Of a DNA stretch of 64,000 nucleotides, positions 48,864-51,560 are shown piece after piece. The DNA comes from Stigmatella aurantiaca (GTDB lineage Bacteria > Myxococcota > Myxococcia > Myxococcales > Myxococcaceae). The DNA lies in assembly GCF_900109545.1 (NCBI RefSeq), contig NZ_FOAP01000006.1, positions 372,001 through 436,000 on the forward strand, in the 5' to 3' direction. The notes under the pieces were generated by a model. The model had not been told where the DNA came from. It saw nothing but the letters and a program-made list of their open reading frames with translations, and did no database searches. The translations under genes were made by a program, and so were the position numbers. Numbering within the stretch: position 1 is the first letter of the stretch; each line of letters starts with the position of its first letter.

Positions 48864-49967
48864 ATGGCCCTCCCACCGCGGCTCTGTCTGCTTTTCATCC
48901 TCCTGCTGGCCTCGGTGGGGCTGGCGGCCCCTGCGCCCGCGCCTCCGGGCAAGCCCCTCACCGTGCACTTCTTCGACGTGGGCCAGGGGGACGCCGCCCT
49001 CGTCATCTCGCCCACCGGCAAGACGGTCCTCATCGATGGAGGGCCCCCGGAGGCCGGCCCGCGGCTGGTGGAGCGGCTGCGCCAGCTCGTCCACGCCCCG
49101 TTGGATCTCGTCATCCTGACCCACCCGCACCTGGACCACCTGGGGAGCATGCGGGACGCCATCCAGGCCGTGGGGGCGCGGCGCTTCATGGACCCGGCGT
49201 TTGACCATCCGAGCGCCGCGTACCGGGACCTGCTGGAGTTCGTGGGCCAGGAGGTGGGCCAGGTGATGACCGCCAGCCCCAACCCGAAGGCCCCCAGCAC
49301 GTTCCTCACCATCGGGCTGGGCGAGGGCGTGCAGCTGACGCTCTACTGGCCCCGCCACCCGCTGGAGCCCTTCCTGAAGGACACCCGATCCGATGCGAAC
49401 TCCAACTCCATCGTCGCCCGGCTCTCCTATGGAAAGACGTCCTTCCTCTTCACCGGCGACGCGGAGCCGGACACCGAGCAGGCCTTGCTCCAGAGGAGCC
49501 TCCCCCTGGCCTCCACCGTGCTGAAGGTGGCGCACCATGGCGGGAGACACTCCTCCACGGCGCCCTTCCTGGCCGCGGTGAAACCCCAGGCAGCCGTCAT
49601 CTCCTGCGGCGCGAACAACGAGTACGGCCACCCCAACCCCGAGGCGCTGGAGCGCCTGGCGGGCGTGGGCGCGCGCATCTTCCGGACGGACTTGCAGGGG
49701 GACATCCAGGCCACCAGCGATGGCACCACCGTCACCTTCCAGACCGGGCGCCCGGCGCCCCCCGCCAAGCCCGCGCCCCCTCCGGAGCGCCCCGCCGCCA
49801 CCGCCGCCCCGGAGGCCCCGCGCTACATCAGCCTCAAGGGCAGCCAGGTCTTCCACCGGGAGGACTGCGCCACGCTGAAGCGGGCGAAGACGAAGGAGCG
49901 GAAAATCTATACCCGCCGCGCGGACGCCCTCCGGGAACGCCGGGCCGCCGAGGACTGCCACCCATGA
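48864..49967 (+). CDS. Secreted ComEC-like metallo-beta-lactamase-fold protein
   Basis: A 367-residue protein with a signal peptide and an MBL domain like the C-terminal domain of ComEC/Rec2 (VHFFDVGQGDAALVISP, about 35-51; metal motif HPHLDHLG, 87-94; FTGDAE; VAHHGGRHSS). Metal ligands look complete. A Pro-rich linker is followed by a small C-terminal domain (about 320-367) with FHREDCATLKRAK and EDC, resembling the metal-binding Ada-type domain found after nucleases. ATG 48864 is one codon after a GTG. ComEC MBL domains may degrade DNA; here activity would be exported. Confidence 0.8.
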   Translation: MALPPRLCLLFILLLASVGLAAPAPAPPGKPLTVHFFDVGQGDAALVISPTGKTVLIDGGPPEAGPRLVERLRQLVHAPLDLVILTHPHLDHLGSMRDAIQAVGARRFMDPAFDHPSAAYRDLLEFVGQEVGQVMTASPNPKAPSTFLTIGLGEGVQLTLYWPRHPLEPFLKDTRSDANSNSIVARLSYGKTSFLFTGDAEPDTEQALLQRSLPLASTVLKVAHHGGRHSSTAPFLAAVKPQAAVISCGANNEYGHPNPEALERLAGVGARIFRTDLQGDIQATSDGTTVTFQTGRPAPPAKPAPPPERPAATAAPEAPRYISLKGSQVFHREDCATLKRAKTKERKIYTRRADALRERRAAEDCHP

Positions 49968-51304
49968 ACGCGCGCCTGCTGCCCCTGCTGGCCCTGCTCC
50001 TTGCCACCGCGTGCCAGGAGCCGCCCGCGCCCCCTGCCCCGCCGCCGGCCCCTCCGCCCCCCGCCGCGAAGCGCTACTTCGCGAAGCCCGCGGATGGGAA
50101 GCTCCACGTCTACTTCCTGGACGTGGGCGCCGGGGATGCCGCGCTCATCGTCTCGCCCGAGGGCCACACCGTCCTCATCGACACGGGCCCGGCCGCCTCG
50201 CTCAACTACCTGGTCAACCGGCTGCCGGAGCTGCTCGCCACCCGGTTGGATCTCGCCATCCTCACCCACCCCGCCCCGGACCACTACGGCGCGCTCGATG
50301 CGGTGCAGAAGGTGGCGGACATGCGCCGGCTGCTCGAGCCGCAGCTGCCCGGGACGGCCCCGGAGTACGACGCCCTGCTCACGGCCCTGGGCACCCGGGG
50401 CGTGGAGATCTTCTCCCCGGCCCCCAACCCCAGCCACCCCAACGAGCCGATGCGCCTGCCCCTCGGCGGGGGCGCGGAGCTGACCGTCCTCTGGCCGCGA
50501 GCCCCCACCGAGCCCCTGCTGGCCGTGGAGGGCGCCGGGCACGCCGCCAACTCCATCGTCCTGCGGCTCACCTATGGGGAGACGTCGGTGCTCTTCATGG
50601 GCGATGCCCGCGCCGAGACGGAGGCCCTGCTGCTCAAGCGCCAGGAGCCCCTGCGCGCCATGCTCCTCAAGGTGGGCGCGCACGGCGCGGCGCTCGCCAC
50701 GAGCGCGGAGTTCCTCCAGGAGGTCCGCCCCCAGGCCGCCCTCCTGAGCCTGGGCACCGGGGGCCTCCCGGACCTGCCCGCGCCGGACACGCTGGCCAGG
50801 CTGGAGGCCGCCAAGGCCACCGTGTTCCGCACGGACAAGGACGGGGAGATTCACGCGGTGAGCGACGGCAAGCAGTTCGTCCTCACCCCGCAGCGGCTCC
50901 CCCCTGGGAAGAGCGCCCTCACCGAGCACGTCTTCGTGCCCGAGGAGGAGGAGGACCCCCTGGCCGTGCCGCTCGTCGCGCCCTCCAAGCCGGAGCCCGC
51001 GAAGAGCCCCCCGCCCCCCGCCCGGGCCGTCGCCTTGAAGACACGCGAGACCGAGGACCTCTCCCGCTTCGGGCAGGTGGTGGACATCGATCAGCTGCCC
51101 AAGGCGGACCGCACCTCGCGGCAGCCCTCGAAGCCCAAGGCCACCGCGGCGATGGAGCGGTATGTGGCCAGCCGCAAGAGTGACGTCTTCCATGTCCCGG
51201 AGTGCCGCAATGCCAAGCGAATCTCGCCGGAAAACCTCATCACGTTCCGCACCCGCGAAGAGGCCGCCAAAGAGCGCCGGCCCGCCCGGGACTGCAACCC
51301 CTAG
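49964..51304 (+). CDS. Tandem ComEC-like MBL paralogue with a degraded active site
   Basis: A 446-residue lipoprotein (lipobox ATAC, Cys 17), paralogous to the gene before it: VYFLDVGAGDAALIVSP matches VHFFDVGQGDAALVISP. The metal motif reads HPAPDHYG (102-109), with the second His replaced by Ala-Pro, and AHHG has become GAHGAA, so catalysis is probably lost. A long Pro/Lys/Glu linker leads to the same Ada-like C-terminus (VFHVPECRNAKRI, ending RDCNP). Start overlaps the first copy by four bases (ATGA). Could bind DNA or regulate its neighbour. Confidence 0.75.
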   Translation: MNARLLPLLALLLATACQEPPAPPAPPPAPPPPAAKRYFAKPADGKLHVYFLDVGAGDAALIVSPEGHTVLIDTGPAASLNYLVNRLPELLATRLDLAILTHPAPDHYGALDAVQKVADMRRLLEPQLPGTAPEYDALLTALGTRGVEIFSPAPNPSHPNEPMRLPLGGGAELTVLWPRAPTEPLLAVEGAGHAANSIVLRLTYGETSVLFMGDARAETEALLLKRQEPLRAMLLKVGAHGAALATSAEFLQEVRPQAALLSLGTGGLPDLPAPDTLARLEAAKATVFRTDKDGEIHAVSDGKQFVLTPQRLPPGKSALTEHVFVPEEEEDPLAVPLVAPSKPEPAKSPPPPARAVALKTRETEDLSRFGQVVDIDQLPKADRTSRQPSKPKATAAMERYVASRKSDVFHVPECRNAKRISPENLITFRTREEAAKERRPARDCNP

Positions 51305-51323
51305 GAAAGCCAAGGGCCGCGCC

Positions 51324-51560
51324 ATGAGCCAAGCCACCGTGGATCGCTTCGAAGAGGGCCTCGCCGTGCTCATCGTGGACGGCCGCGAGGTGACGCGTCC
51401 CCGGGCCGGGCTGGCCCCAGGCGTGCGCGAGGGAGACGTCATCGACCTGGCCACGGGCCAGGTGGACGCGAAGGCCACCGAGGCCCTGCGGGAGGAGGTG
51501 CGTCAGGCCCGCAAGCGCGCGGCCCGCCAATCGCCTCCCCCCGGAGACTTCGAGCTCTAG
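51324..51560 (+). CDS. DUF3006 domain protein
   Basis: A 78-residue protein beginning with ATVDRFEEGLAVLIVDG, the DUF3006 signature. DUF3006 genes often lie beside ComEC-like MBL genes, as here (19 bases after the second copy), so it is probably a functional partner. ATG 51324 has AAGGG upstream. Its role is unknown. The gene is convergent with AgmX, two bases apart. Confidence 0.85.
   Translation: MSQATVDRFEEGLAVLIVDGREVTRPRAGLAPGVREGDVIDLATGQVDAKATEALREEVRQARKRAARQSPPPGDFEL

Follow-up and report, generated by a model that had tools for sequence, protein, structure and literature searches.

Tandem ComEC-type MBL proteins with predicted export signals, one of them catalytically broken, beside a DUF3006 gene in the Myxococcaceae

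The window analysed here is a stretch of 64,000 nucleotides from Stigmatella aurantiaca, whose genome assembly comprises 9.37 Mb on 61 contigs. Between deoC and a zinc-ribbon/GYF/TonB-type gene, both on the minus strand, it carries a set of three genes on the plus strand, all of which the first-pass annotation had correctly recognised, i.e., two tandem genes for MBL proteins, called copy 1 and copy 2 in the following, and a DUF3006 gene:

48864-49967, plus strand: copy 1 (ORF1), a standalone ComEC-type MBL protein of 367 aa, predicted to be exported
49964-51304, plus strand: copy 2 (ORF2), a paralogue of copy 1 of 446 aa, predicted to be a lipoprotein
51324-51560, plus strand: DUF3006 (PF11213) gene, 78 aa
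49964-49967, plus strand: ATGA, a 4-nt overlap of the copy 1 stop and the copy 2 start
49854-49964, plus strand: C-terminal tail of copy 1, HxxxC ... AxxCxP, an Ada_Zn_binding derivative with the third Cys changed to Ala
51164-51301, plus strand: C-terminal tail of copy 2, HVPEC ... ARDCNP, the same motif as in the copy 1 tail

The overlap between the two MBL genes is exactly 4 nt in 55 of the 56 orthologous pairs in which it was resolved, start codons having been picked by signal-peptide score without regard to overlap, and translation of copy 2 is likely coupled to that of copy 1 through the ATGA. The locus is flanked by pgm, dksA, deoC and the GYF/TonB-type gene; no DNA-uptake gene was found, and no com gene recognised, among these flanks.

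The intact protein, the broken paralogue and their tails

Copy 1 consists of a signal peptide (residues ~1-22), an MBL domain (~32-292), a Pro/Ala-rich linker and an Ada-derived C-terminal tail. Its residues 32-288 match 9IC4, the crystal structure of the MBL domain of Moorella glycerini ComEC, with an E value of 7e-31 (8e-61 for the family profile), and among curated families it matches the C-terminal part of ComEC/Rec2 best (TIGR00361; E 1e-32), where its score of 113 stays under the cut-off of 190. The ligand set is complete (H87, H89, D91, H92, N181, D199, H224 and H256), and HPHLDH, noted already at first pass, is retained along with GD, AHHG and YGHP; all motifs are intact in 62 of 62 copy-1 orthologues in the ligand alignment. 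The 9IC4 domain is a Mn-dependent ComEC nuclease domain, in which the metal ligands H598, D600, D602, H603 and D700 have been mutated, as have H725 and S728, the putative DNA contacts (PMC12455585). Their equivalents in copy 1 are, by alignment, H87, H89, D91, H92, D199, H224 and G227, respectively, the sole ligand difference being a His (H89), which is the canonical MBL residue, for D600. Silale et al. inferred three His, four Asp and one Asn as ComEC ligands (PMC8579336); by elimination, the third His would be that of GHP (H256 of copy 1) and the Asn would be N181 or N179. A signal-peptidase-I type N-terminus is seen in nearly all copy-1 orthologues, export signals having been assessed by sequence pattern throughout. 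By analogy with 9IC4, its nearest solved relative, copy 1 may be a nuclease that handles DNA, and it is on this analogy that the DNA-handling role first proposed for the locus continues to stand.

Copy 1 is not a ComEC/Rec2 DNA transporter, given its 367 aa, its one signal peptide and its TIGR00361 score below the cut-off, and a canonical competence gene is ruled out by the separate full-length ComEC, with its own MBL domain, encoded in the same genome together with the flanks free of recognised com genes. An anti-phage system was likewise rejected, the PADLOC and NCBIfam matches being at superfamily level only and the flanks consisting of housekeeping genes; membership in the Avs1a or LmuA MBL families failed, as the similarity is at superfamily level over the MBL domain (48 bits for Avs1a against a cut-off of 420), and none of the NTPase or protease partner genes of those systems was identified in the locus flanks. 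In one genome (G085; L127:3098-4981), copy 1 is predicted to have 628 aa, with an extended linker, compared to 350-430 aa elsewhere. The window genome encodes a further ComEC-like MBL protein (L007, G000:C33:9547-9747; ~378 aa) with HVDVDH and PHHGS, and its gene is preceded by an ORF of ~510 aa; by eye the arrangement resembles nuclease-protease defence pairs.

Copy 2 shares 45% identity with copy 1 over 274 aa (E 1e-68) and is made up of an MBL fold (44-311), a disordered linker (331-397) and a C-terminal tail (400-446). In its AlphaFold2 model (mean pLDDT 81.9, mostly above 90 in the MBL domain) the tail is well predicted, and the model fits 9IC4 with a Z score of 34.2 and an rmsd of 1.9 Å over 257 residues; the next best structural match is the phosphorylcholine esterase Pce (1WRA/2BIB; Z 26.6), and RNase J is found at Z ~17. 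Both proteins belong to the MBL fold, as had been supposed. The catalytic site of copy 2 is broken, its lesions in the window being A104, A239 and the absence of the GHP His: the first motif reads HPAPDH, GD is retained, and AHHG has turned into GAHG, which lacks the first His and still has the second one and the Gly. Aligning the metal ligands across the family confirms that no copy-2 orthologue has the complete dinuclear site found throughout copy 1, as the equivalent of ComEC H725 is a His in 0 of 61 scorable sequences (Ala in 41, Ser in 17, others in 3) and the GHP His is kept in 0 of 59. Other positions are more variable or better kept: the second His of HxHxDH is retained in 34 of the 61 orthologues, with Asp replacing it in 17 and Ala in 8, 45/61 have the bridging Asp, and the last His of HxHxDH is present in 61/61. 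The most eroded sites belong to the genus (g6) that includes Corallococcus (QPDPKH, AGGA, SPG). The two lesions listed at first pass, HPAPDH and the loss of AHHG, hold for the window, but HPAPDH is a trait of the window genus and one close neighbour, the universal lesions being those in HHG and GHP, the latter of which had gone unlisted.

The window copy 2 has the lipobox LATAC, and the lipobox pattern recurs in 60 of 62 orthologues, so that copy 2 is a predicted lipoprotein, with a signal of a different type from that of copy 1; export signals are indeed recognisable on both proteins. In Myxococcus, Lys at position +2 is the mark of lipoproteins of the inner membrane and Ala at +7 that of lipoproteins sent to the matrix (PMC3222651). 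Position +2 of copy 2 is Q in the window, K in 20 and Q in 23 of the orthologues, and E also occurs, a variation which allows no uniform prediction of inner or outer membrane, and position +7 of the window protein is Pro, by which matrix targeting under the Ala+7 rule was rejected (PMC3222651). Copy 2 could simply face the periplasm, and the term extracellular, as initially applied to the system, is an unproven label. An acidic VDID-type motif is present in the copy 2 linker (331-397) of 29 of 62 orthologues and in the linker of 1 of 62 copy-1 proteins.

The tails of copies 1 and 2 are 41% identical over 61 aa. Clostridial relatives have tails that match PF02805 (Ada_Zn_binding) with 27.6-31.1 bits (cut-off 23), one related myxococcal tail reaches 16.9 bits (E 0.006), under the cut-off, and the window tails of both copies have no Pfam match to PF02805. 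HxxxC and the last Cys are kept, and the third Cys has become Ala or Ser, not only in copies 1 and 2 but also in the majority of single-copy relatives; it is because this third Cys is Ala that the window tails miss PF02805, and they do not have all four Cys/His ligands of that domain, PCxxC included. The Ada-like C-terminal domain of the first-pass annotation is therefore, going by the clostridial matches, Ada-like by descent, and no longer a scoring Ada domain in the window proteins.

The DUF3006 neighbour

The third gene matches PF11213 with an E value of 8e-13 (48.9 bits, against a gathering cut-off of 32.3). A signal-like hydrophobic N-terminus was found in 0 of 75 DUF3006 proteins, their maximum hydrophobicity being 8 of 12, and mostly 7, compared to 9-12 in copies 1 and 2. 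A three-part system that is entirely extracellular, as originally suggested, is therefore unlikely, and a cytosolic DUF3006 protein could not join the exported pair unless it were exported by an unknown route. The structural model is of low confidence (pLDDT 70.7) and shows a small beta-barrel or OB-like N-terminal part and a helix, with unspecific matches (HypC as the best, at Z 6.9, EF-P/IF5A and cold-shock folds; Foldseek E 0.017), and the sequence has no significant match in the PDB. The low-confidence model and the lack of both a significant match and an export signal led us to reject a split ComEC, in which DUF3006 would serve as the OB fold of the exported MBL protein. No mention of DUF3006 was found in the open-access papers searched.

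The window protein ends in GDFEL, and the pattern G[DNS][FILV][DSEKA]L (51546-51557 in the window) ends 70 of the 75 DUF3006 proteins, also beyond the Myxococcaceae; it resembles a short peptide motif for binding or degradation. The window genome has a second DUF3006-like gene (L002:1501-1650, i.e., G000:C1:599372-599521), directly downstream of a radC-like gene and near a sirtuin-like one, and most Myxococcaceae genomes have similar weak DUF3006 matches at a second place. In another genome (G139; L136:411-977) two tandem DUF3006 domains are found in one protein, with no MBL gene in the stretch examined.

Distribution, age and selection

The Myxococcaceae are predatory soil bacteria. Ninety-six genomes of this family in the broad sense (f1) were searched, and the locus was found in 70. 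The complete triad is present in 59 of these (on one contig in 58 and on two contigs in one), which bears out the proposed stability of the intact/broken pair, and within the family it is the exception, rather than the rule, for one of the three genes to be missing. In four of the 70 the locus is interrupted by contig ends, six (G042, G043, G044, G046, G047 and G092) have copy 1 and DUF3006 without copy 2, and in a single one (G088, L126; 78% complete) neither copy 1 nor DUF3006 accompanies copy 2, which lies ~250 bp from deoC and is the only lone pseudoenzyme seen. The site is constant in the family, with pgm-dksA-deoC upstream and the GYF/TonB and FYDLN genes downstream, and in G024 and G143, which belong to two other families, one MBL gene occupies the same neighbourhood.

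In the maximum-likelihood tree, built from 140 MBL domains, a single branch (SH-aLRT 99) separates all 61 copy-2 sequences from the rest. Four of the single-copy genomes (G043, G044, G046 and G047) fall within the copy-1 tree beside their two-copy congeners G045 and G048, so that copy 2 must have been lost from them secondarily. The outgroups have copy 1 and DUF3006 only, and the absence of copy 2 from these and from the six genomes within the family makes it a family-specific accessory. In named genomes from many phyla, DUF3006 is found near 18 of 56 standalone MBL loci, which is a lower bound given that the profile was built from myxococcal sequences, and near 1 of 24 full-length ComEC genes; these 80 loci are the best of more than 500 matches, a non-random sample, and among them no broken second copy was found outside the Myxococcaceae. 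Recurrence of the arrangement and of the lesions in ~60 genomes is far above chance. Copy 2 is under purifying selection, with dN/dS values of 0.11-0.49 compared to 0.11-0.67 for copy 1 (18 close-relative pairs, Nei-Gojobori), the high values stemming from pairs with dS near 0.1.

A possible pseudoenzyme partner and its known counterparts

The interpretation we favour, with a probability of about one half, is that copy 2 is a membrane-anchored pseudoenzyme that arose by early tandem duplication and serves as the non-catalytic partner of copy 1. The ancestral unit would have consisted of an exported ComEC-type MBL phosphodiesterase or nuclease and its DUF3006 neighbour, and a single tandem duplication of the MBL gene would have followed early in the Myxococcaceae. 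Copy 1 would have gone on as the enzyme, its signal-peptidase-I signal leading to release into the periplasm, and copy 2 would have become lipid-anchored, keeping the fold and the C-terminal tail and losing the catalytic site, and would most likely act as a membrane tether, a substrate holder or a regulator (i.e., a restraint) of copy 1 as a periplasmic Mn-dependent nuclease. DUF3006 would most likely stay in the cytosol, as an accessory to the older one-enzyme unit. Gene overlap, anchor and asymmetric loss (copy 2 gone from six genomes that have copy 1 and DUF3006, and the reverse seen once, in an assembly 78% complete) together speak for an accessory role of copy 2 beside copy 1. Against this interpretation as a whole speak the flanks without a DNA-uptake gene, the genome's own full-length ComEC, the HPHxDH and bridging Asp of most copy-2 lineages and the lone copy 2 of G088.

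The substrate of copy 1 could also be a phosphodiester other than DNA (e.g., a phosphorylated envelope polymer or lipid), which we consider a possibility to be kept in mind, if on the unlikely side. Pce, second to 9IC4 among the structural matches of the copy 2 model, would be a precedent, no competence gene lies at the locus, and copy 1 has a Gly in the place of ComEC S728, a Ser next to HHG that contributes to DNA cleavage (PMC12455585). Even so, 9IC4 is clearly closer than Pce, both by structure (for copy 2) and by sequence (for copy 1), and it is the C-terminal part of ComEC/Rec2 that gives the best curated family match.

Somewhat more doubtful is a copy 2 that works on its own, as an anchored protein binding DNA, nucleotides or another phosphodiester, whose emptied groove would make it a receptor or scavenger without any contact with copy 1. 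Conservation of fold and groove, purifying selection, the lipid-anchor signal and the lone copy 2 of one genome would all be in keeping with such a function, whereas the 4-nt overlap, constant in all but one of 56 pairs, would not, nor would the repeated loss of copy 2 while copy 1 stays, the reverse being almost never seen.

That copy 2 might have stayed an enzyme whose site is reduced or altered, with one metal ion or a different substrate, seems improbable to us. Most copy-2 lineages may still bind some metal or have an altered chemistry, judging by their HPHxDH and bridging Asp, the last His is universal, and in ComEC itself the D600A change makes the rate only about five-fold lower (PMC12455585); however, every aligned copy is missing both the H725 equivalent and the GHP His, the window genus is also without the second His of HxHxDH, and in genus g6 the gene has been retained with a site eroded further still (QPDPKH, GG, SPG). 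A decaying duplicate kept by chance, to which the lineage-specific extra ligand losses might point, is refuted by dN/dS values that are well under 1 in all 18 pairs and by the conservation of fold, lipobox and reading frame over ~12 genera in one old clade.

If copy 2 is indeed the partner of copy 1, one may go further and propose, tentatively and at odds well below even, that the two form a periplasmic heterodimer of active enzyme and pseudoenzyme, anchored in the membrane through its dead subunit and processing DNA at the envelope without the ComEC channel; this would be an exported prokaryotic counterpart of CPSF73/CPSF100, of independent origin. Standalone ComEC-type MBL proteins with DUF3006 are widespread; a search of the open-access literature yielded no role for the pair. 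A conserved pair in which catalysis has already been removed from one partner offers a clean genetic handle on the family, could reveal what tethers or restrains exported nucleases, and would be one more, independent example of an MBL nuclease accompanied by a dead paralogue. An MBL protein, MXAN_1394, is enriched in M. xanthus vesicles (PMC4158809), and is at most a candidate orthologue of the proteins of this locus.

Among known systems, the MBL domain of ComEC/Rec2 (BLACT/CTD) resembles copy 1 in its fold, in the order of its motifs and at the active-site positions tested (9IC4; PMC8579336; PMC12455585), and, if the predicted export of copy 1 is correct, also in its location outside the cytoplasm. 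Copy 1 differs from it in being a standalone secreted protein without channel or OB domains, with HPH rather than HPD in motif II, a linker and an Ada-derived tail, no competence locus, and a dead paralogue beside it.

Pairs of an RNA-cleaving MBL enzyme and a pseudoenzyme partner are found in CPSF73/CPSF100 and INTS11/INTS9. The logic would be the same, i.e., an active MBL nuclease accompanied by a paralogue that lacks metal ligands and has kept the fold; copies 1 and 2, which show gene overlap and co-conservation, would be a putative pair of this kind. Those proteins, however, are of the beta-CASP type and have their RNA substrates in the nucleus, whereas the pair described here is of the exported bacterial ComEC type. 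RNase J1/J2 is a bacterial pair of MBL paralogues, one of which is weaker; it is cytosolic and beta-CASP, and RNase J2, unlike copy 2, is no pseudoenzyme with universal loss of ligands. In Streptococcus pneumoniae the CTD of ComEC is degenerate and has been suggested to guide DNA if inactive (PMC8579336). Like copy 2 it is a ComEC-type MBL domain retained after changes in its metal ligands, yet it sits within ComEC itself, its changes are conservative, and the strand-degrading nuclease in that species is the unrelated EndA. The dead paralogues CPSF100 and INTS9 and the S. pneumoniae CTD are precedents for such a logic, and do not make the locus a member of any of these systems. The standalone exported ComEC-like MBL proteins with DUF3006 of Bacillota, Acidobacteriota and other Myxococcota have the same two-gene core without the second, broken copy.
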